NCBI GenBank assembly: GCA_017459445.1
Contig: JAFUDJ010000016.1
Coordinates: 1 to 54,041 of the forward strand
From: Prevotella sp.
Lineage (GTDB): Bacteria; Bacteroidota; Bacteroidia; Bacteroidales; Bacteroidaceae
Length of the DNA: 54,041 bases
Direction of reading: 5' to 3'
The position numbers and the translations under genes are program-made. The notes under the pieces were generated by a model, which saw only the letters and a program-made list of their open reading frames with translations, was not told the DNA's origin and made no database searches. Below, one piece after another: positions 17,053-52,253 of the stretch (positions are counted from its first letter, which is position 1; each line of letters opens with the position of its first letter).

Positions 17053-17140
17053 ATACCCTATGGCGGCTTAGTATATTATAAATAGGTGTGGCTCCAGCGA
17101 TGCCATAAGCCGTTCTTTGCCGCCAGTATGGTCTTTATGT

Positions 17141-17274
17141 GCTCGTTTGTAGCCTGTTTATGGCTCGTTTGTAGCCTGTTTATGGCTCGTTTGTAGCCTG
17201 TTTATGGCTCGTTTATAGCCTGTTTATGTGCTCGTTTGTAGCCTGTTTATGGCTCGTTTATAGCCTGTTTATGT
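17141..17274 (+). repeat. 22-bp tandem repeat array A
   Basis: Six direct copies start at 17141, 17163, 17185, 17207, 17230 and 17252. The core is GCTCGTTTGTAGCC, then TGTTTATG. Copies 4 and 6 have G to A at position 9 and one extra T. It lies between the XRE stop and its terminator, so it is transcribed as 3' UTR. It has no open frame. Confidence 0.9.
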
Positions 17275-17283
17275 GCAAAAAGT

Positions 17284-22222: not shown

Positions 22223-22273
22223 CGAATTTCCCGCGAAATATCACCACATAGCGCGCGGTTTTATCACACCCCG

Positions 22274-22432
22274 CGACTACTTTTATGTCAAACGGCGCAG
22301 ACTTTTATGGCATTTCGTGCGGACTTTTATGGCATTTCGTGCGGACTTTTATGTCAAAAGTTGCGGACTTTCGGGATAAAAGTCCGGGCTGTTTGACATA
22401 AAAGTCCGTTCCATTTGGCATAAAAGTCCGCA
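22274..22432. repeat. 22-bp dyad-symmetric repeat array B
   Basis: Core GACTTTTATG starts at 22300, 22322 and 22344, with a degenerate fourth at 22366. The inverted core ends at 22384, 22406 and 22428. All steps are 22 bp and both halves are symmetric about position 22375. A further imperfect copy precedes (ACTTTTATG near 22279). It lies between the divergent promoters of typA and rpsO. Confidence 0.9.
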
Positions 22433-28828: not shown

Positions 28829-28912
28829 TATTGATTAACTAAATTATAAACATTCGGGCCTGCGCACCTCGCGGTGCCGTGTTTCTTACGCCCTGAATTG
28901 TATTCCGCAAGC

Positions 28913-29034
28913 ACCATGCTTATCTCTCGTAAATACCATGTTTATCTCTCATAAATACCATGTTTACGCTTCATAAGTATTATGTTTGTTCTTCGTAGGT
29001 ATCATGGTTACGTCTTGCAAGTATGATGCTTGAA
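28913..29034. repeat. 22-bp degenerate tandem array C
   Basis: Five copies plus a partial one start at 28913, 28935, 28957, 28979, 29001 and 29023, an exact 22-bp period. Each begins with a form of ACCATGTTTA and ends with a form of CATAAAT. Copies drift gradually from left to right. It lies between the convergent ends of the peptidase and the small peptide gene. Confidence 0.85.
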
Positions 29035-29093
29035 CCGTGCAAAGGGATTGTTTACAGCCTCCAAACGATGCGAATGGAGGCTGCAAACTCCGC

Positions 29094-31783: not shown

Positions 31784-32908
31784 TTACTGGACTTCTGATG
31801 CTATTTGCTTTACGGTTATGGCATCAACACCCAGCAAGTCGGCAATATCTTCTGCGGCCATCTGCTGCTTCAGGAGGGTAGTTACCGTTTTTCGCATCAT
31901 CCTCTCTGACCGTTCCTCAGCCTGCGCACGCTCTTCCTCAGCCTGCGCACGCTGTTCCTCAGCCTGCGCACGCTGTTCCTCTGCCTGTGCACGCTGTTCC
32001 TCTGCCTGTGCACGCTGTTCCTCAGCCTGTGCACGCTGTTCCTCAGCCTGCGCACGCTGTTCCTCAGCCTGCGCACGCTGTTCCTCGGCCTGCGCACGCT
32101 GTTCCTCGGCCTCCTTGATGGCTACTTTCGACTCCGCCAACTGCCGGTCTTTCTCCATGATTTCCGTCTCGCGGCTCTTCAACACTGAGAAAAACTCGTC
32201 CTCTACGTCCATTTCGCGGCGCACGTCCTTGTCGCACGAGGCTTCCATGAGCTTGCGAAGGATGGGTTCCATGTCGGCATCATCGCCATAGACCGACGGG
32301 TCGATGTCTATGTCCTGTTGGTTCTTCTCAGAGAGCACGCGCGACTGGTCAAAGATGCTCAGCACCTTGTCCAGACGGTTGTTTATCCTGCCGTGCAGGC
32401 GTGGTATCTGCACGACGATGCTGTTATGGGTGAGGCTCTCCACGAAAGGGTCGTTGATGCCGCCCTCCACCACGTTACGGTCGTAGTCGTACACCTGATG
32501 GTCTACATACACCACTGGGGCATCAATGCTCCCCACCGTGTGTCCCAGCAGGTAGACGGCCACCATGGGCAGGGCATGTGAGCTACGCCCGGCACCCTCC
32601 ATGTTCTCCTTGTTGTCGTACTGGGCACCGAGGTATTGACGGAAGCGCAACAGCTCGGAGTCCACCTGTGACTTCTGTATCTCTATGAGGATGGTTTGCC
32701 GCTTGCCATTCTCGTCGCGGATGGTGGCACCGAAGTCAATGCGGAAGATGGAGAGGGTTTCGCGACTCTTATTGGAATACTCGTTGCGCCGCATGTGCAC
32801 CTCCACCACTTCCTTCTTCAGCAGGGCGGAGAGAATGGTGCGGGCTATGCGCTCGTCCTCCATGAGGTACTTGAACACGACGTCGTAGATGGGATTGGCT
32901 ACTATCAT
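31784..32908 (-). CDS. Rpn/PD-(D/E)XK nuclease family protein
   Basis: A 374-residue protein of the family often annotated as PD-(D/E)XK transposase or Rpn recombination-promoting nuclease. It begins NPIYDVVFKYLMEDERIA, and the nuclease core is FRIDFGATI then ILIEIQKSQ (Asp and Glu-x-Gln). After residue 245 comes a long helix with nine heptads AEEQRAQ (one AEEERAQ), followed by a short C-terminal segment (MAAEDIADLLGVDAITVKQI) that looks like a small DNA-binding helix pair. Such genes are highly multicopy in Bacteroidota. No terminal inverted repeats or target duplications are visible here. Confidence 0.8.
   Translation of the reverse strand: MIVANPIYDVVFKYLMEDERIARTILSALLKKEVVEVHMRRNEYSNKSRETLSIFRIDFGATIRDENGKRQTILIEIQKSQVDSELLRFRQYLGAQYDNKENMEGAGRSSHALPMVAVYLLGHTVGSIDAPVVYVDHQVYDYDRNVVEGGINDPFVESLTHNSIVVQIPRLHGRINNRLDKVLSIFDQSRVLSEKNQQDIDIDPSVYGDDADMEPILRKLMEASCDKDVRREMDVEDEFFSVLKSRETEIMEKDRQLAESKVAIKEAEEQRAQAEEQRAQAEEQRAQAEEQRAQAEEQRAQAEEQRAQAEEQRAQAEEQRAQAEEERAQAEERSERMMRKTVTTLLKQQMAAEDIADLLGVDAITVKQIASEVQ
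31915..32115 (-). repeat. 21-bp in-frame repeats encoding AEEQRAQ heptads
   Basis: Nine near-identical 21-bp units, differing mainly at third positions (GCCTGCGCACG or GCCTGTGCACG on the plus strand). Copy number can change by slippage without breaking the frame, lengthening or shortening a coiled coil. Confidence 0.9.
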
Positions 32909-42481: not shown

Positions 42482-42554
42482 CGCGGAGTGGAGCAGTTGG
42501 TAGCTCGCCAGGCTCATAACCTGGAGGTCGCATGTTCGAGTCCTGCCTCCGCAA
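42482..42554 (+). tRNA. Initiator tRNA-Met (anticodon CAU)
   Basis: Cloverleaf of 73 nt without encoded CCA: acceptor CGCGGAG with CTCCGCA, D stem GAGC/GCTC, anticodon stem CCAGG/CCTGG with loop CTCATAA, T loop TTCGAGT. The C1-A72 mismatch is the hallmark of initiator tRNA. The lower anticodon stem is A-U, G-C, G-C instead of three G-C pairs. The T stem GCATG/CCTGC contains one U-C mismatch (42513+20, that is 42533 with 42543), which is unusual. Confidence 0.9.
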
Positions 42555-42611: not shown

Positions 42612-43511
42612 CTATACCAAGTGTTCAATCAGGTCGGCGCGGTCGCCGGGCAGCATGTCGATGACGGGAATCTCGACCATCGTGTAGCAGGCGGGCTGCA
42701 GGCGCATGGAGGCGCGCGCCACGTTGACCAGCACCTGTCCTGTCAGTGCCGGGTTGTTAATCTGCATGTTGAACTCCAGGCGCTGGTTCTGCGTCTGTCC
42801 GCTGACGCCCTTTCGGACGAGGTTCACGCCGTGGCCCATGTCGCGCACGTCGTCGACCGATTCCACCTGGAACACATGCGTCTCGTCGGAGGCGAAGTAG
42901 GGGTCGGCCTTGATGTCCTTGGCGACCTGCTCCAGCGTGTAGCCGTCCTCCAGTTCGACGTACACCATGCGGCGGTGTATGCCTTCGCCCAGGGGGATGG
43001 TCATCGACAGGGCGTTCTTGACGCCGGCCTTCGAGCGCACGCATACCGAATGGCCCATCGACATGCCGGGTCCGAAGTTGGTGTAGCTCAATCCCTTCGG
43101 TGCCAGGCTCTGCATCAGTGTGCGCACGATGCTGTCGCTGCCCGGGTCCCATCCGGCGGCGATGACGCTGACGGTGCCCGTCTGCTTGTTAATGGCCATC
43201 AGCCGCTCGCGGTAGCCACGGATGTTGGTGTGGATGTCGAACGAGTCGACGGTGTTGATGCCCAGGGGCAGTATCTGTTTGGCGTATTCCTCGCACGAGC
43301 GGGTGGGGGTGGCGAGTATGGCGACGTCCACGCTGCTGAGCTCCTTGATGTCCTTCACTACCTCGTAGGGGGCCAGCTCGGCGGGTTTGTCGGCTGCTCC
43401 GTTCCTGCGTACGATGCCGGCAATCTCGAAGTCGGGTGCGGCTTCCAGTGCCTGGACGGTGTACTTTCCGATGTTGCCGTAGCCTACTACGGCGGCTCTG
43501 ATTTTCTTCAT
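42612..43511 (-). CDS. ddh: meso-Diaminopimelate D-dehydrogenase
   Basis: A 299-residue NADP-dependent enzyme that converts tetrahydrodipicolinate to meso-diaminopimelate in one step, for lysine and peptidoglycan. NADP motif AAVVGYGNIGKYTVQALE (residues 5-22), and substrate-binding blocks VSVIAAGWDPGSDSIVRTL and FGPGMSMGHSV match Ddh. This is the short route that replaces the acylated DapD/DapE branch in some Bacteroidota. Start is ATG 43511 (MKKIRAAVVGYG); the frame from 43595 would include the promoter. Single gene. Confidence 0.92.
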   Translation of the reverse strand: MKKIRAAVVGYGNIGKYTVQALEAAPDFEIAGIVRRNGAADKPAELAPYEVVKDIKELSSVDVAILATPTRSCEEYAKQILPLGINTVDSFDIHTNIRGYRERLMAINKQTGTVSVIAAGWDPGSDSIVRTLMQSLAPKGLSYTNFGPGMSMGHSVCVRSKAGVKNALSMTIPLGEGIHRRMVYVELEDGYTLEQVAKDIKADPYFASDETHVFQVESVDDVRDMGHGVNLVRKGVSGQTQNQRLEFNMQINNPALTGQVLVNVARASMRLQPACYTMVEIPVIDMLPGDRADLIEHLV

Positions 43512-43569: not shown

Positions 43570-43681
43570 CACTTTTTCTTTGAAATATCCGACAAAATGC
43601 TATCTTTTTTTCATGATTTATGTCAAAATAACACTGCCGTGCCGTCGTTTGAACGGGAGGTTGATGGCATATAGAATTCAG

Positions 43682-43813
43682 TTTCTCCGGTAAACGAACT
43701 TGATTTCTCCGCTAAACTTACTTCATTTCTCCGGTAAACCTTCTACTTTTAGCGGAGAAACGCAACACGTTTAGCGGAGAAATGAAATACGTTTACCGGA
43801 GAAACCGAAAACG
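43682..43813. repeat. 22-bp dyad-symmetric repeat array D
   Basis: Three forward cores TTTCTCCGSTAAAC start at 43682, 43704 and 43726. Three inverted cores (TTTA or GTTTA, then SCGGAGAAA) start at 43747, 43769 and 43791. Each core is 14 bp followed by 8 variable bp. All three pairs are symmetric about 43743. It lies between the divergent genes ddh and ruvA. Confidence 0.92.
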
Positions 43814-43952
43814 AAGTGACAGCATTGCCCCGTCCGTTGTACGGCAAAGCGACTCCGATGTGACTTGAAATTAATCAGGTGGCACACAATAAAATGCTAC
43901 AAGGAGCGTTTATTGTTTTGTATATATACACATTTTTAGAGAAAAAAGAAGG

Positions 43953-44579
43953 ATGATAGAATACATCAAGGGTGAGCTGACCGAGCTTTCCCCTGCGCTG
44001 GCTACCATTGAAGCGGCAGGAGTAGGCTATGGACTGAACATTTCGCTGACGACGTACAGCGCCTTGCAGGGCAGCCAACACCCGGCAACAGACAGCCCCC
44101 GCCTCGTCAAGCTGTATGTCTACGAGGCTATCAGGGAAGACGCTCACGTGCTTTACGGCTTCGTGTCGAAGAAGGAGCGTGAGATGTTCGAGCTGCTGAT
44201 AACGGTCAGCGGCGTGGGCACCAATACGGCTCGGATGATGCTTTCGTCGATGAGCGTCAGCGAGTTGTGCGGCGCCATCAGCCGTGGCGACGAGCGGCTC
44301 ATCAAGGGCATCAAGGGCATAGGCAAGATGACGGCCCAGCGCATCATCGTCGACCTGCGCGACAAGATAATAGCCCTGGGCATTGCCGACGAGATACCTG
44401 CCGGCGGCAGCCTGTCGGCCCCCGTCAACAATGCCGTCAAGGACGAGGCCGTGTCGGCCCTGACCATGCTGGGCTTCTCGCCTGCGCCGACGCAGAAGGT
44501 GGTCGTAGCCATCCTGCAAGAGCAGCCCGACCTGCCCGTCGAGCAGGTGGTGAAGCTGGCGCTGAAGCAGATAAAGTAA
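43953..44579 (+). CDS. ruvA: Holliday junction helicase subunit RuvA
   Basis: A 208-residue junction-binding protein that with RuvB drives branch migration. Domain I is an OB fold ([38 protein letters not shown]). Domain II has two helix-hairpin-helix motifs ([37 protein letters not shown]). Domain III (about residues 158-208, [13 protein letters not shown]) contacts RuvB. It lies 21 nt upstream of sprA, a gene order I recall as conserved in Bacteroidota. Confidence 0.94.
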
Positions 44580-44600: not shown

Positions 44601-47600
44601 ATGTACGGGAACAATATATATAAGAAGTGGAAGCAGCGTGTTTCGGTGAGGAGCATGCTCTATCCCGTATTGTTCCTGTTCGTCACCGTATCCCTGTTTG
44701 CCACTCCGCCGCAGGACGACAACCGCCGCCGGCCCAACCGCCTGCAGGCAGCCGGGCCGCGCACCGGCGGCAACCAGACGCTGCCGACGCCGCTGCGCAA
44801 TGCCGCCGCCGGCAAGAGTCAGGCCGACGATAAGAACCAGGGCGCCAAGGGCAAGGGCACGACTGTGACCACCCCCGTTCCGCCCGCACTGGAGATAGAG
44901 GACGAGACGATACCCGACTCGCTGCTGCACCCCCGCTGGAAGATACAGCGCACGACGCCCATCGAGACTGCCGACCTCGACTCGTCGGCCGTCGACCTGC
45001 GCTTCCCCGAGAATGTCAAGCAGCAGGTGGAATACAACGACTCGACGGGCATGTACCTCATCGGCTCGAAGGTGGGCGACACCTACCTCAATGCGCCGGT
45101 GCTGATGACCCCCGACGAGTACCGACGCTGGTCGGAGCGCCGCGAGCTGCACCGCTTCTTCCGCGACAAGGACGCGCAGAACGTGGCCGCCAAGGGCAAG
45201 GAGAAGTTCGACTTTGCCGACATGCACTTCAGTCTGGGGCCTGCCGAGAAAATATTCGGCCCGGGCGGCGTGCGCATCAAGACGCAGGGTACTGCCGAAC
45301 TCAAGCTCGGCGCCACGTTCAAGAACATCGAGAACCCCTCGCTGCCTGAGCGCAACCGCAAGACGAAGGCCATCGACTTCGATGAGAAAATCAACCTGAA
45401 CGTCACCGGTAAGGTGGGCGACAAGGTGAACATGTCGCTGAACTACAACACCGATGCCACCTTCGACTTCGACACCAAGAACCTGAAGCTGCGCTATGAG
45501 GGCAAGGAGGACGAGATAGTCAAGCTCGTCGAGGCCGGCAACATCACCTTCCCGTCGAACAACTCGCTGGTGCGGGGCGCCTCCAGCCTCTTCGGCGTGC
45601 GCACTGACCTGCAGTTCGGCAAGCTGAAGCTGCAGGCCGTCGTGTCGCAGAAGAACTCCACCTCCAAGAGCGTAGCGTCGAAGGGCGGCACCCAGCTCAC
45701 CCCCTTTGAGCTCAATGTGGCCGACTATGAGGAGAACCGCCACTTCTTCCTCTCCCGCTTCTTCCGCGAGCGCTACGACGAAGCCATGCAGCAGTTGCCC
45801 AACGTGACGACGGGTGTGGAAATCAGCCGCATCGAGGTATGGATAACCAACAAGTCGGGAACGACATCCAATACGCGCAACATCGTGGCCTTCTCCGAGC
45901 TGGGCGAGAGCCGCGCTGCGAAGTGGGGCGGTGGCGGCGTGTTCTCCGCAGCCCCCGACAACGGCGACAATACCGAATACAGCCTGCTGACCACGCAGTA
46001 TGCCGAGGCCCGCAACATCGACCAGGTGTCGACCGTGCTGACAACGCCGTTCGAGGGCGGCACCGACTATGAGAAACTGGCGTCGGCACGCCTGCTGACA
46101 ACGTCGGAATATACGCTCAACAGTGCACTGGGATACATATCGCTGAAGACCACTTTGCAGACCGACCAGGTGCTGGCCGTGGCCTATGAATACACCTACG
46201 GCGGCCGGACCTACCGCGTGGGCGAGTTCGCCTCCGACCATACCAACGCCACCGAGGCACTGTTCGTCAAGGCGCTGAAGAACACGTCGAACAATCCAAG
46301 CCAGCCCAACTGGTCGCTGATGATGAAGAACGTGTACTACCTGGCCACCAACGTCGAGAAGCAGAAGTTCCGTCTGGACGTCAAGTTCCAGAGCGACACG
46401 ACGGGCGTCTACCTGAGCTACATCCCCGAGCCGACCACGAAGGACGTCATCCTGCTGCGGGCACTGGGCTGCGACCGTCTGGACAACAACAACAAGATTC
46501 ACCCCAACGGCTACTTCGACTTCATAGAAGGCTACACCGTGTCGAACGGCCGCATCTTCTTCCCGTCGGCTGAACCCTTCGGCGAGACGCTGCGCTATTT
46601 CCTCACGACGCACGGCGTCTCCGACGAAAAGGCCAGCCAGTATGCCTTCACCGAGCTGTACGACACGACGCGCACGGCGGCCAAGCAGATGACCGACAAG
46701 AACAAGTTCCTGCTGACGGGCCAGTTCAAGGGCACGTCGGCCAACGTCATCTCCCTCGGAGCCTACAACGTGCCGCAGGGCTCCGTGGTGGTAACGGCGG
46801 GCGGCGTGACGCTGTCCGAGGGCACCGACTACAGCGTCGACTACTCAGCCGGCGAGGTGACCATCCTCAACCAGAGCATCATCGACGCCGGTACGAGCGT
46901 CAACGTGTCGCTGGAGTCGAACACCGACTACGGCATGCAGCGCAAGCGCATGTTCGGCTTCAACTGGGAATACGACTTCTCGAAGAACTTCCAGATAGGC
47001 GGTACGCTGCAACACCTGTCGGAGCAGGCGCTGACCTCGAAGGTCAACATGGGCAGCGAGCCGCTGAAGAACACGCTGTGGGGCGTCAACGTGAACTGGA
47101 AGACGGAGAGCCAGTGGCTCACACGCATGCTCGACAAGCTGCCGCTGCTGCACTGTACGCAGCCGTCGCAGATTACCTTCACCGGCGAGTTCGCACAGCT
47201 CATAGCCGGAACGGCCAGCGGAACGCAGGACAACGCCTCGTACATCGACGACTTCGAGAACGCCAAGAACGGCATCGACGTGTCGGAGCCCAAGTCGTGG
47301 GTGCTCTCCAGCGTGCCCTCCATGTTCCCCGAGCACGACGACCGCACGGGCGTCACCAGCGGCTACAACCGCGCCCTGCTGTCGTGGTACAACATCGACC
47401 CGCTGTTCAACAACCGCTCCAGCAGCCTGACGCCTGCCCACATCAAGAGCGACCTGGAGCAGCTTTCCAACCACTACATGCGCGCCGTGTACGTCAGCGA
47501 GCTGTACCCCAACCGCGACCAGTCGACCTACAGCGGCGCCACCAACACACTGCCCATCCTCAACCTGGCCTACTATCCCGAGGAGCGCGGCCCGTACAAC

Positions 47601-50600
47601 CTCAGCACCAACGTCAATGCGAACGGTACGCTGCCCAACCCGCAGCAGCACTGGGGCGGCATGATGCGCAAGCTGGACACCAACGACTTCGAGACGGCCA
47701 ACGTCGAGTACATCGAGTTCTGGCTCCTCGACCCCTTCATCTATACCTCGCAGCAGCAAGACGCCTCCGAATACGGCGGCGACCTGTACATCAACCTCGG
47801 CGAGGTGAGCGAGGACATCCTGCGCGACGGCAAGAAATTCTACGAGAGCGGCATGCCCGTGGACGGCACCTCGTCGTTCACCGAGACGGCATGGGGGCGC
47901 ATTCCCGTACAGTCGACGCAGACCTACGCCTTTGCCACGACCAGCGGCTCGCGCGCCAGACAGGACGTCGGACTGAACGGCCTGAACGACGACGAGGAGC
48001 GCACGTGGCCGGCCTACCAGCAGTTCCTGAACGATGTCAGCGCCGTCGTCACCAACGACAGCGTGCGCCAGGCATGGAGCGCCGACCCCGCCAACGACGA
48101 CTACCACTACTACCGGGGACGCGACCTGGACGACCGCCGCGTGAACATACTGGACCGATACAAGCGCATCAACATGCCGCAGGGCAACTCGCCCGACAGC
48201 GACCAGCAGACCGAGGGCTACGACACGTCGTACAAGACCTACCCCGACGTCGAGGACATCAACCAGGACTACACGCTCAACGAATATGAGCGCTACTATG
48301 AATACAAGGTGAGCATCCGCCCGGAGGACATGCAGCTGGGCTACAACTTCATCACCGACGTCCGCGAGGCGCCCGTCATGCTGCGCAACGGCAAGCAGGA
48401 GAAGGTGAAGTGGTACCAGTTCCGCATACCGCTGACGCAGTACACGCGCCGCGAGGGAAGCATCAACGACTTCACCAGCATCCGCTTCATGCGCATGTTC
48501 CTCACCGAGTTCAAGAAACCCATCTTCCTGCGCTTCGGCTCGCTCGACCTCGTGCGCGGCGAATGGCGCGTCTACGACCAGCCGCTGACCACGGGCAGCA
48601 ACAGCGGACAGCTGGAGGTGAGCGCCGTCAACATCGAGGAAAACAACGACAAGCGCCCCGTCAACTACGTGCTGCCGCCGGGCATCAGCCGAGTCACCGA
48701 CCCCTCGCAGCCCCAGCTGACCGAAGCCAACGAGCAGGCGCTGAGCATGGTGGTGAAGAACCTGTCGCCAGGAGAGTCGAAGGCCGTCTACCGCACGACG
48801 ACGCTCGACCTGCGACTGTACAAGCATCTGCAGATGTTCGTGCACGCCAACCACCTCATCGACAACGCCACCTCGCTGCAGGACGACCAGCTGGCCGTCT
48901 TCGTACGCGTGGGCAGCGACTACAAGAACAACTACTATGAGTACGTGATACCGCTGAAGCTGACGCCTGAGCGTAACAACTATAACAAGTATAACGTGGA
49001 CGACTGCCGCGCCGTCTGGCCGCAGGACAACATGCTCGACATCGACCTCTCGGTGTTCACACGCATCAAGAAGGCCCGCAACAAGGCACGCGCCACGGGG
49101 ACGGGCAGCTTCACGACGCTCTTCACCGACTACGACCCCGACCACATGAACAATCAGGTGAGCATCATGGGTAACCCGTCGCTCGGAGAGGTGAAGACGA
49201 TGATGATTGGTGTGCGCAACCTGTCGGGCTCGCTGAAGTCGGGTGAGATATGGGTGAACGAGCTGCGACTGCAGGATGTCGTCAACAAGGGCGGATGGGC
49301 GGCCTCAGGCGCGCTGAACATGCAGCTCAGCGACGTGGCAACGGTCAACGTCACGGGAAAGATAATCACCGAGGGATTCGGCGGACTGGAGGACGGTGTG
49401 GCCGCCCGTACCAACGAGAACTACCGCACCTACTCCGTCACGACGAACGTCGAGCTGGGCAAGTTCTTCCCCGACAAGCTGAAGGTGTCGGCACCGCTGT
49501 ACTACTCACTCACCAAGGAGGAGACGCGCCCGAAGTATAACCCGTTGGACACGGACATGGAACTGGACGACGCCCTCGACGCCACCATCGACCAGCATGA
49601 GCGCGACTCCATCGAGAGCATCGCCGTCACCAAGACCACGACGACCAACTTCTCGCTCAGCAACGTGCGCTTCGGCATCAAGACCAAGCGCCACCCCATG
49701 CCTTACGACCCCGCCAACTTCTCGTTCTCATACAGTCACCGCCACACGCAGAAGTCGGGCGAGACAACCGTATACGAGCGCGACGACGAGTGGCGCGGCG
49801 CACTGAGCTACACCTATACGCCGGTGTACAAGGCGTGGGAGCCGTTCAAAAAGTCGAAGAGCAAGTCGAAATGGATGGCACTGCCCAAGGCGTTTGCCCT
49901 GAACTGGCTGCCGCAGAACATCACTTTCAATACCGACATGGTGCGCAACTACTACGAACTGCAGGAGCGCGACATGGACGACCTGGGCGGTTCGCAGCTG
50001 CCGGCGACCTTCAACTCGCAGTTCCTCTGGAACCGTAACTTCTCCATCCGATGGGACCTGACCAAGAACCTGCACATGAATTTCCAGTCGGGGACACAGG
50101 CCGAAATCGAGGAGCCATACAGCGACAAGCCTATCAACAAGGACCTCTACCCGGAACGCTATACGGCATGGAAGGACTCGGTGTGGCAGAGCATCAAGCA
50201 CTTCGGACGCCCGCTGGACTACCGGCAGACCTTTACCGCGTCGTACCAGCTGCCGCTGAACAAGCTGCCCATCTTCGACTGGGTGAACTCCGACGCCTCC
50301 TACACCGCTACCTACAGCTGGGTGCGCGGCACGGAGCGGGAAGACGGCACGTCCATGGGTAACACCATATCGAACAACCGCCAGATTAACATCAACGGCA
50401 CCTTCAACATGGAGACACTGTATAACCACGTGCCCTTCCTGAAGGCTGTCAACGACCGCTTCAAGAAGGCCATCCCCAAGACTCCGAAGAACGCCAACAA
50501 GAAAACCGTGAAGACGACGAAGGAGGCCAAGGACGGCGACGACGGACAGGACGGCAAGAACGGCAAGGGCAAGGTGGACAAGAAGGCGGCGAAGGACGAG

Positions 50601-52253
50601 AAGAACCTGCCGAAGAATAAGAACACGTTCCAGAAGGAGGTGGTGCTGCTGCCCGATACGTCCATCGTCATCACCCATAACAAGAAGTCGAAGCGGCTCA
50701 TCGTCACCGCCAAGACGAAGGATGGGCGCACGTATCCGGTGAAATACAAGGTGGTGGACCAGAACAAGATTGCCATCCGGCAGGGGAAGGTGCGCCGCAG
50801 CATAGCCGACAGCATCGTGAAGCCCGACAGCATCAAACTGCTCGTCACCGTCAAGCCGCCCCTGGAAAACCAGTGGTGGTACAAGCCGGCACAGAGTGCG
50901 GCACGCCTGCTCATGATGGTCCGCTCCATCAATGTCAGCTATCGCGACCAGTACTCCATGTCGCTGCCCGGATTCATGCCGAACATCGGCGACGCCTTCG
51001 GACAGCGCACAGGCGGCGTGATGGCGCCGGGACTGGGCTTCGCCTTCGGATTCACGGGCGACAGCTTCCTGAACAAGGCGCACGACAACGGGTGGCTGTT
51101 CGGTGAGGAAAATGCCTCGCCGGCATCGACCAACAGCACGCGCGACCTGCAGCTGAAGGCTACCGTAGAACCGCTGCGCGACCTGAAGATTGACCTGAAC
51201 GCATCGCGCACGGAGAGCCGTTCGCGCCGCATACAGTATCAGTTCAGCGGCATGCCGTCGACGCAGACGGGAACATTCTCCATGACGACCATCTCCATAT
51301 CCTCGTCGCTCGAGAAAATCGGCGACGCCAACAGCGGATACCCCTCGAAGGTCTTCAACCGCTTCTGCGACGCCCTGCCACGCTTCCAGCAGATGGTGGC
51401 GGCACACTACGGCACGGAGGTGGACATGTACAGCGCATCGGTCATGATACCGGCATTCCTCGACACCTATACAGGCAGCGGGCGCGGCTCGCTCGACCTC
51501 ATCCCGGCGCTGACCAAGCTGCTGCCTAACTGGACCATCCGCTACTCGGGACTGTCGAAACTGAAGTGGTTCAACGAGCATTTCAAGTCAGTAAACCTCA
51601 ACCACTCCTACAAGTCGGTGTTCGCCGTGGGCAGCTATACCAGCAGCAGCGAGACGGCATCCATGCTGGGATGGCACGTGCCTACCGTCAGCATCAACGA
51701 GTCGTTTGCCCCGCTGATTGGCGTCGACGTCACCTTCCTCAACAACCTGACGATGAAGGCGGAATACCGCCGCACACGGGTGCTGACGCTCTCCATGACC
51801 AGCGTGCAGATTAACGAAAACCGCTCCAACGACCTCGTGCTCGGATTCGGCTATAAGGTGAGCGACTTCCGCCTCTTCGGCGGCAACGCCTCGCGGAAAA
51901 TCAAAAAGGCGCAGCGCGGCGGAAAGGCCAACGACAATGATAACAACAAGAACAAGGCGAGCAGCAACAAGAGCCGCAGCGCCGGCGTGAACCACGACCT
52001 GAACCTGCGACTCGATGTGTCGCTGCGCGACCAGGCGGCCATCACCCGCGACATTGCCACGCGCTCGTCGGCAGCATCCAGCGGCAACTCTGCCCTGAAG
52101 ATTTCCTTCATGGCCGACTATACCCTGTCGCGACTGCTGACGCTGTCGGCCTATTACGACCGCCAGACCAACACCCCGCTGCTTTCATCCAGCAGCTATC
52201 CCACCACGACCCACGACTTCGGCCTCTCGCTGAAGTTCTCGCTCACGCGTTAG
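44601..52253 (+). CDS. sprA: Type 9 secretion outer membrane translocon SprA
   Basis: A 2550-residue protein of the SprA/Sov family, the giant 36-strand barrel through which type 9 cargo crosses the outer membrane. A signal peptide lies near residues 15-35 (MLYPVLFLFVTVSLFA). SprA signatures include FGPGGVRIKTQGTAELKLG, FDEKINLNVTGKVGDKVNM, GYISLKTTLQTDQVLAV and NASYIDDFENAKNGIDVSEP. The end LSLKFSLTR is a barrel terminus. Two Lys/Asp/Asn-rich low-complexity insertions (about residues 1965-2015 and 2430-2455) look like surface loops. Very GC-rich, in contrast to what follows. It implies a working type 9 system elsewhere in the genome. Confidence 0.95.
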   Translation: MYGNNIYKKWKQRVSVRSMLYPVLFLFVTVSLFATPPQDDNRRRPNRLQAAGPRTGGNQTLPTPLRNAAAGKSQADDKNQGAKGKGTTVTTPVPPALEIEDETIPDSLLHPRWKIQRTTPIETADLDSSAVDLRFPENVKQQVEYNDSTGMYLIGSKVGDTYLNAPVLMTPDEYRRWSERRELHRFFRDKDAQNVAAKGKEKFDFADMHFSLGPAEKIFGPGGVRIKTQGTAELKLGATFKNIENPSLPERNRKTKAIDFDEKINLNVTGKVGDKVNMSLNYNTDATFDFDTKNLKLRYEGKEDEIVKLVEAGNITFPSNNSLVRGASSLFGVRTDLQFGKLKLQAVVSQKNSTSKSVASKGGTQLTPFELNVADYEENRHFFLSRFFRERYDEAMQQLPNVTTGVEISRIEVWITNKSGTTSNTRNIVAFSELGESRAAKWGGGGVFSAAPDNGDNTEYSLLTTQYAEARNIDQVSTVLTTPFEGGTDYEKLASARLLTTSEYTLNSALGYISLKTTLQTDQVLAVAYEYTYGGRTYRVGEFASDHTNATEALFVKALKNTSNNPSQPNWSLMMKNVYYLATNVEKQKFRLDVKFQSDTTGVYLSYIPEPTTKDVILLRALGCDRLDNNNKIHPNGYFDFIEGYTVSNGRIFFPSAEPFGETLRYFLTTHGVSDEKASQYAFTELYDTTRTAAKQMTDKNKFLLTGQFKGTSANVISLGAYNVPQGSVVVTAGGVTLSEGTDYSVDYSAGEVTILNQSIIDAGTSVNVSLESNTDYGMQRKRMFGFNWEYDFSKNFQIGGTLQHLSEQALTSKVNMGSEPLKNTLWGVNVNWKTESQWLTRMLDKLPLLHCTQPSQITFTGEFAQLIAGTASGTQDNASYIDDFENAKNGIDVSEPKSWVLSSVPSMFPEHDDRTGVTSGYNRALLSWYNIDPLFNNRSSSLTPAHIKSDLEQLSNHYMRAVYVSELYPNRDQSTYSGATNTLPILNLAYYPEERGPYNLSTNVNANGTLPNPQQHWGGMMRKLDTNDFETANVEYIEFWLLDPFIYTSQQQDASEYGGDLYINLGEVSEDILRDGKKFYESGMPVDGTSSFTETAWGRIPVQSTQTYAFATTSGSRARQDVGLNGLNDDEERTWPAYQQFLNDVSAVVTNDSVRQAWSADPANDDYHYYRGRDLDDRRVNILDRYKRINMPQGNSPDSDQQTEGYDTSYKTYPDVEDINQDYTLNEYERYYEYKVSIRPEDMQLGYNFITDVREAPVMLRNGKQEKVKWYQFRIPLTQYTRREGSINDFTSIRFMRMFLTEFKKPIFLRFGSLDLVRGEWRVYDQPLTTGSNSGQLEVSAVNIEENNDKRPVNYVLPPGISRVTDPSQPQLTEANEQALSMVVKNLSPGESKAVYRTTTLDLRLYKHLQMFVHANHLIDNATSLQDDQLAVFVRVGSDYKNNYYEYVIPLKLTPERNNYNKYNVDDCRAVWPQDNMLDIDLSVFTRIKKARNKARATGTGSFTTLFTDYDPDHMNNQVSIMGNPSLGEVKTMMIGVRNLSGSLKSGEIWVNELRLQDVVNKGGWAASGALNMQLSDVATVNVTGKIITEGFGGLEDGVAARTNENYRTYSVTTNVELGKFFPDKLKVSAPLYYSLTKEETRPKYNPLDTDMELDDALDATIDQHERDSIESIAVTKTTTTNFSLSNVRFGIKTKRHPMPYDPANFSFSYSHRHTQKSGETTVYERDDEWRGALSYTYTPVYKAWEPFKKSKSKSKWMALPKAFALNWLPQNITFNTDMVRNYYELQERDMDDLGGSQLPATFNSQFLWNRNFSIRWDLTKNLHMNFQSGTQAEIEEPYSDKPINKDLYPERYTAWKDSVWQSIKHFGRPLDYRQTFTASYQLPLNKLPIFDWVNSDASYTATYSWVRGTEREDGTSMGNTISNNRQININGTFNMETLYNHVPFLKAVNDRFKKAIPKTPKNANKKTVKTTKEAKDGDDGQDGKNGKGKVDKKAAKDEKNLPKNKNTFQKEVVLLPDTSIVITHNKKSKRLIVTAKTKDGRTYPVKYKVVDQNKIAIRQGKVRRSIADSIVKPDSIKLLVTVKPPLENQWWYKPAQSAARLLMMVRSINVSYRDQYSMSLPGFMPNIGDAFGQRTGGVMAPGLGFAFGFTGDSFLNKAHDNGWLFGEENASPASTNSTRDLQLKATVEPLRDLKIDLNASRTESRSRRIQYQFSGMPSTQTGTFSMTTISISSSLEKIGDANSGYPSKVFNRFCDALPRFQQMVAAHYGTEVDMYSASVMIPAFLDTYTGSGRGSLDLIPALTKLLPNWTIRYSGLSKLKWFNEHFKSVNLNHSYKSVFAVGSYTSSSETASMLGWHVPTVSINESFAPLIGVDVTFLNNLTMKAEYRRTRVLTLSMTSVQINENRSNDLVLGFGYKVSDFRLFGGNASRKIKKAQRGGKANDNDNNKNKASSNKSRSAGVNHDLNLRLDVSLRDQAAITRDIATRSSAASSGNSALKISFMADYTLSRLLTLSAYYDRQTNTPLLSSSSYPTTTHDFGLSLKFSLTR

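Follow-up and report, generated by a model that had tools for sequence, protein, structure and literature searches.

The window is a stretch of 54,041 nucleotides of Prevotella sp. DNA. The element described here, array D, lies in it between ddh and ruvA. The former encodes diaminopimelate dehydrogenase (PF16654) and occupies 42612..43511 on the minus strand, with its ATG at 43511 placed by eye; ruvA is found at 43953..44579 on the plus strand by Pfam scan. The gap that holds array D is 441 bp when measured from this ATG and 433 bp by projected starts. Downstream of ruvA is a very long SprA-type gene (44601-52253), which encodes 2550 aa and matches SprA_N in the Pfam scan. Elsewhere in the window (31912-32112), about 9.6 units of 21 bp are found within an ORF on the minus strand (31784-32908); units of this length inside an ORF are in frame, and the product would be a repeat protein with 7-residue units.

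Array D consists of 14-bp cores, TTTCTCCGSTAAAC, in 22-bp units; 8-bp spacers separate the cores, and the centre measures 7 bp. A sequence-only reading of the window had described three forward and three inverted cores, and a direct core search finds all six. The forward cores are f1 (TTTCTCCGGTAAAC, 43682..43695), f2 (TTTCTCCGCTAAAC, 43704..43717) and f3 (TTTCTCCGGTAAAC, 43726..43739); the inverted cores are r1 (43747..43760), r2 (43769..43782) and r3 (43791..43804). All three nested pairs share the centre at 43743, as claimed, which is the midpoint of the 7-bp segment 43740..43746. One of the inverted cores, r1, has one mismatch (TTTTAGCGGAGAAA). Four of the five steps are 22 bp, but the central step is 21 bp. 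The spacers do vary, as had been stated, but are degenerate rather than random. The array had been drawn to 43813; its actual extent is 123 bp, at 43682-43804. As a whole, the earlier observation is therefore partly confirmed.

The window contains three further arrays with the 22-bp period, as previously reported. Array B (22259..22430) has TTTTATGKCA cores, forward then inverted, and belongs to a second dispersed family. Arrays A (17134..17276) and C (28906..29042) both consist of direct 22-bp units; those of A include TTTATGGC and TAGCCT, and those of C are degenerate. The four arrays had been called unrelated in sequence. This is only partly right: TTTATGKCA, the core of array B, also flanks array D in phase, so the arrays of the window are not all unrelated, and array A contains TTTATGGC. 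In the flank frame of array D, the left outer 22-bp unit (43660..43681, plus strand) has the B-like site TTGATGGCA and the third left outer unit (43616..43637, plus strand) has ATTTATGTCA. The second has no recognisable B-like site; the right outer unit (43805..43826, minus strand) has a partial one, TGACAGCAT.

The parent genome (G000) is incomplete (1,974,015 bases, 54.95% complete). A search allowing at most one mismatch finds 59 D cores in it, and a sixtieth core carries two mismatches. The cores form ten arrays, every one with three forward and three inverted cores at steps of 22, 22, 21, 22 and 22 bp; in this 55% complete genome, all 59 cores found sit in such 3+3 arrays. Eleven of the 14 core positions are constant in 60 of 60 cores. 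The variable positions are one with C (37) or G (23), one with a single change, and the last, which is C in 53; only 8 of 840 cells are off consensus. The spacers diverge between copies, yet their purine/pyrimidine pattern is kept.

The TTTATGKCA-like sites are found in both flanks of the D cores, in the same 22-bp frame and oriented as the nearer half. When the 154 bp to either side of each of the ten D arrays are searched with at most two mismatches, 38 of 47 matches fall on one phase (2.1 expected); without the array C35b the count is 32 of 40. Six matches have the opposite orientation. The peak is at phase 1, which corresponds to TTTTATGKCA in the frame of D; phase 0 has only 2 of 47, which is not significant. 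Phased B-like units are all that the 154-bp flanks of the ten arrays have in common. Around B sites, 15 loci contain 13 clusters with at least three B cores each, and 12 of these have both orientations. Four of the 13 are exactly three forward cores followed by three inverted ones; the rest range from 0+3 to 4+3 and 3+4. A span of 35 bp is found for the innermost inverted pair of every one of the ten D arrays and of six of 12 B arrays; in the remaining B arrays this span is 57 bp (one unit more) in three and 36 bp in three. The in-phase outer sites and equal innermost spans indicate that D and B, which have different cores, share one frame.

Two other kinds of short array were observed in the parent genome. 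Firstly, the arrays at L082 (11501-11583) and L091 (9451-9533) are made of the palindromic unit GTAACCATGGNGGTTAC, and a B-like GATAAAAGTC comes after every such unit. Secondly, near-identical short arrays of AAAAACAAGTTGTTTTT occur at L074 (1415-1471), L077 (11217-11273), L078 (6115-6171) and L081 (309-367); these four are probably part of another dispersed element.

The dyad symmetry of array D raises the question of pairing: as RNA or cruciform, its halves could form a long bulged hairpin (a terminator, REP-like element or small RNA). Hairpin function is unlikely because the nested arms show no covariation. Among nested pairs, agreement at the C/G position is 15 of 30 (null 16.4). For the spacers it is 53 of 160 comparisons when nested versus 70 when swapped; same-slot spacer figures are computed without C35b. 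Rfam gives no family over array D at the gathering threshold, the sole match in the window being a tRNA (42482-42554). A paired structure is accordingly given very little credence, and the absence of covariation suggests that the sites act as duplex DNA.

Arrays of this period are common in the genus. Stretches of seven genus genomes, totalling 1,474,041 bases (157,445 outside long ORFs), were searched by fixed-lag matching; the stretches of the parent genome include contigs already known to hold D or B arrays, while those of the other genomes were picked blind to arrays, though near a RuvA contig for several. The search gives 176 intergenic arrays, of which 93 have a period of 15-40 bp. In this pooled sample 22 is the commonest period (51 of 93, with 8 for period 21 and 3 for period 23); the proposal of a general class of intergenic 22-bp arrays is thus upheld across the genus, with a density near one per 29 kb (51 in 1.474 Mb). 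The sequence-only reading would have been undone had 22 been no more frequent than other periods, and in the pooled sample this is not the case. When all intergenic runs of at least 80 bp are dinucleotide-shuffled once, no array with a period of 12-40 bp results. Together with the ten identical 3+3 layouts in the parent genome and the lack of two-core matches in 149 congeners, this puts the observation beyond chance. Period 22 leads in G000, G055, G035 and G016 and ties in G024 (two arrays). In G045 it is behind period 9 (4 versus 5) and level with period 14, and in the single stretch of G040 neither of two arrays has it. In other genera, two of 13 arrays have period 22 (400 kb from seven genomes, six of them from other families, compared without matched base composition); one of these two is in a genome of the same family.

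Core sequences differ between genomes. They include AACGTTT in G024, TGACGCAAATTAC in G016, AGTAAATCAAATTGA in G035, and TTATGCGTAAATTC and CAATAACTATTG in G055; TTTTATGTCA is another congener type. An inverted copy is found near 17 of the 51 sampled arrays (6 of 51 in a reversed control), 8 have palindromic units and 26 are direct only; dyad symmetry is thus common in the class, but not general. REP-like palindromes, GCCCTGAAAGGGC and CCCAGGGC...GCCCTGGG, were also seen at L072 and L132 (G042 and G045), beside 22-bp arrays or alone.

Could such arrays arise by ordinary tandem duplication through replication slippage? The direct-only arrays are compatible with this, and some outer units and array A resemble recent whole-unit duplications. 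Slippage does not, however, make inverted halves, nor does it give a constant 3+3 count at ten separate sites or keep cores conserved while spacers diverge, and a sharp peak at 22 beside so few arrays at 21 and 23 is not expected from it. Slippage of arbitrary sequence at orthologous sites had been named as the outcome that would undo the sequence-only reading; the constant 3+3 number, conserved cores and inverted halves show that it does not apply to D. As a general account slippage has a very small probability; we consider it refuted as the origin of D and B, though it may apply to direct-only arrays.

A link with divergent promoters had been suggested and is not borne out. By gene context based on long ORFs, 8 of the sampled 22-bp arrays are in divergent, 25 in tandem and 17 in convergent gaps, with one unresolved; divergent gaps, whose share of the sampled intergenic bases is about 24%, are not preferred. 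The convergent share (17 of 50 placed arrays, against about 23% of intergenic bases) would suit a hairpin or terminator. The suggestion of a protein-binding element fares better, since the anatomy of the arrays fits a row of protein-binding sites. The earlier interpretation is thus partly supported as a whole, and the 22-bp arrays suggest a widespread kind of protein-binding DNA element.

Orthologous gaps were compared between the parent genome and its relatives. Among 29 congeneric ruvA loci, the ddh-ruvA gap can be measured in 17 congeners. In 15 it is shorter (177-301 bp) and aligns next to both genes; the two long gaps (525 and 826 bp) contain 22-bp arrays of quite different sequence. The gap at ksgA is 942 bp in the parent genome; of 17 relatives with ksgA nine were measured, with six gaps of 80-176 bp and three of 372-616 bp. 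G035, which is outside these nine, has 22-bp arrays of another core before ksgA. At the trigger-factor locus, the gene neighbouring the D array could not be located at any locus of 20 relatives, which precludes an orthology comparison there. The nearest of five relatives compared has 68% of ddh third positions in common with the parent genome. Judged from these gaps, array positions are lineage-specific and not conserved between species, and arrays were gained in this lineage at two of them, ddh-ruvA and ksgA. At another place in the genus, contig C42 of G034 contains two extra fragments (51382-51483 and 74862-74963) whose match to RuvA is limited to its last 34 residues; both fragments have an internal stop.

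Signs of copying are present in both families. The D arrays C35a and C35b are alike over about 327 bp, which covers the array and its outer units, then diverge; their flanking genes are different. Two B copies have 12 differences in 188 positions, and their likeness stops about 9 and 11 bp past the outermost cores; the match is little more than the array itself. The outermost cores are mutually inverted and, in the B copy, close to its ends. By eye, no terminal repeat was recognised beyond the array for D or B, no target-site duplication was recognised by eye at C35a/C35b or at the B pair, and no exact empty site was resolved. Between D copies, spacer likeness ranges from 0.36 to 0.82. Only the best two pairs (0.82 and 0.74) exceed a column-shuffle null and most likeness is within it, the null being scored in one orientation and real pairs at the better of two. 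These two are the clearly related pairs in the D family. The D spacers, only 36-82% alike, tell against recent copying, in which an element should carry its spacers along.

The genes beside the D arrays encode a TonB receptor/OmpA, aldolase/aquaporin, trigger factor, a MutY-type protein, a gyrase A-type protein, KsgA, CysS/enolase, MraZ and DAP dehydrogenase/RuvA; Pfam matches among proteins neighbouring arrays also include SprA and the Bacteroidetes FtsL_2 family, which fit a Bacteroidota genome and make Prevotella plausible. These genes have no related function, and no single regulon is apparent. Three of the gaps lie between divergent genes, and four or more between tandem ones. No replication initiator was found by Pfam among 26 neighbouring proteins, seven of which have no match.

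These neighbours bear on a second reading of the conserved cores, in which a host nucleoid-organising or global regulatory protein uses the arrays in place and selection at each locus keeps the cores. Binding would nucleate at the six central cores and spread outward along the weaker in-phase sites. Near-perfect cores with diverged spacers, the constant 3+3 number and the graded in-phase outer sites are all as such a protein would have them. So is the position that is C or G: a site position with C or G but never A or T fits minor-groove contact. A host protein does not account for neighbouring genes without a common function, for positions that are not conserved in relatives, for cores that change from species to species, or for 22-bp arrays showing no preference for divergent gaps. 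We regard it as possible, though on the unlikely side. For the constraint on the cores as such, a putative host protein acting in place would explain the data as well as a putative mobilising protein.

The D family appears confined to its own lineage. A pattern of two D cores has no match in 149 congeners, and none in genomes of 84,980 species (from which near relatives may have been left out) or in viral contigs; blastn gives no match in plasmids and phages (with the same proviso for near relatives of the window's genome). A single D core is matched in 10 of 398 genus genomes, its own included. Eight of the nine others have one isolated match each, and no array surrounds it in the six of these genomes that were inspected (all but G028 and G366). 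The ninth, G316, has eight exact matches, which form one end of a 164-166-bp module (TTTCTCCGCTAA...TTAGCGGAGTAA). There are nine copies of this module (L145-L152); the D core is exact in eight and has a mismatch in one. The module adjoins 22-bp units of AGCCTAGTTT, another core than D. The D core at its left end may reflect shared specificity, or chance.

Elements in congeners provide a precedent for mobility. Elements 568-602 bp long occur in G007 (L243-L246) and G031 (L263 and L265). They are bounded by terminal inverted repeats, ACTGACATCCGACATAG, and carry TTTATGTCAGT every 11 bp in inverted subterminal rows; this is the B motif at half its spacing. A search of the parent genome (55% complete) for the G007 terminal repeat gives no match. 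A dispersed family in G055 (L095, L098, L101, L102, L257 and L258) is 75-84% alike over about 300 bp; its several types of 22-bp unit always come in the same order, and its left end varies. It was also observed that two G007 contigs start inside a ACTGACATCCGACATAG-ended element.

The explanation we lean towards, leaving aside how the element moves, is that array D is a copy of a dispersed, lineage-specific, MITE-like intergenic element composed of oriented 22-bp protein-binding sites. It is favoured by the fixed 3+3 geometry in ten places, near-invariant cores, mirror-oriented in-phase outer sites and related copies. That there are protein-binding sites within a dispersed element is likely. 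One protein unit would bind per 22 bp, or two helical turns, on a single face of the DNA, and two blocks of protein would meet head to head at the dyad. The six central cores would be strong sites and the outer TTTATGKCA sites weaker ones. The rows of TTTATGTCAGT in the G007 and G031 elements incline us to a mobilising protein as the binder; this is plausible, at somewhat less than an even chance. The mobiliser might be a transposase-type end-binding protein acting in trans, which is less certain; the 55% complete parent genome yielded neither an autonomous partner nor a mobilising gene. If a mobilising protein binds the cores, the array would be a MITE-like element that is little more than two inverted rows of sites. 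Spacers would then drift and cores persist, since a copy would continue to move only if its sites were good. A still more tentative extension, which we consider rather improbable, is that the genus-wide 22-bp lattice reflects one protein family with fast-changing specificity, each species having its own cores in a fixed 3+3, 35-bp-pair geometry and rows that spread between genes.

Arrays with a 22-bp period are frequent in a genus that is abundant in guts. If they bind one protein family, this would be a new mobilising system, or a new chromosome-organising or regulatory protein. The D-type core is a ready bait for finding the putative binding protein.

No description of the 22-bp array class in this genus was found among the open-access papers listed, but several known systems share features with array D. 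The ends of Tn7 and phage Mu have rows of about three 22-bp sites for their transposases (TnsB and MuA, respectively), with the two ends mutually inverted. Array D likewise has three 22-bp sites per half and inverted halves; in contrast, its rows are 7 bp apart and enclose no cargo, and the 55% complete genome yielded no transposase gene. Iterons of plasmid origins, such as that of R6K, are phased 22-bp protein-binding repeats. Array D resembles them as a row of phased, putatively protein-binding 22-bp repeats; unlike them, it is found at many chromosomal places, has inverted halves and has no replication gene among 26 neighbours. REP and BIME sequences are dispersed, intergenic, species-specific palindromes that form hairpins. 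D is also dispersed, intergenic, species-specific and symmetrical, but its nested arms lack compensatory change.

MITEs are short, non-coding, dispersed and intergenic, with symmetrical ends, according to the part of a review used here (PMC10969869). Array D is similarly short (123 bp for the core part), non-coding, intergenic and symmetrical, and is dispersed in ten copies; the copies are about 327 bp long in the D pair and 188 bp in the B pair. It differs in that the whole element is the array; neither a target duplication nor a terminal repeat outside the cores was recognised.

The nearest described element found for array D is BrickBuilt of Porphyromonas gingivalis, as far as the portion of PMC4596501 consulted describes it. 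BrickBuilt is a MITE/minisatellite with 19 dispersed intergenic copies of 23-nt direct repeats (AGAYCATARTATCCTCTCRTRTG), from 1 to 22.8 repeats per copy; many copies have a leader, a tail and terminal inverted repeats, and non-autonomous mobility has been proposed (PMC4596501). On this description the two differ in unit length (22 bp in D) and in sequence, and D has a constant 3+3 inverted layout in place of direct repeats only, with no leader or tail recognised in its 154-bp flanks. Both are nevertheless dispersed and intergenic, have tens of copies or fewer and near-equal repeat lengths, and occur in the same bacterial order (PMC4596501). One BrickBuilt copy adjoins sprA (PMC4596501, Table 1); near array D, an SprA-type gene follows ruvA.
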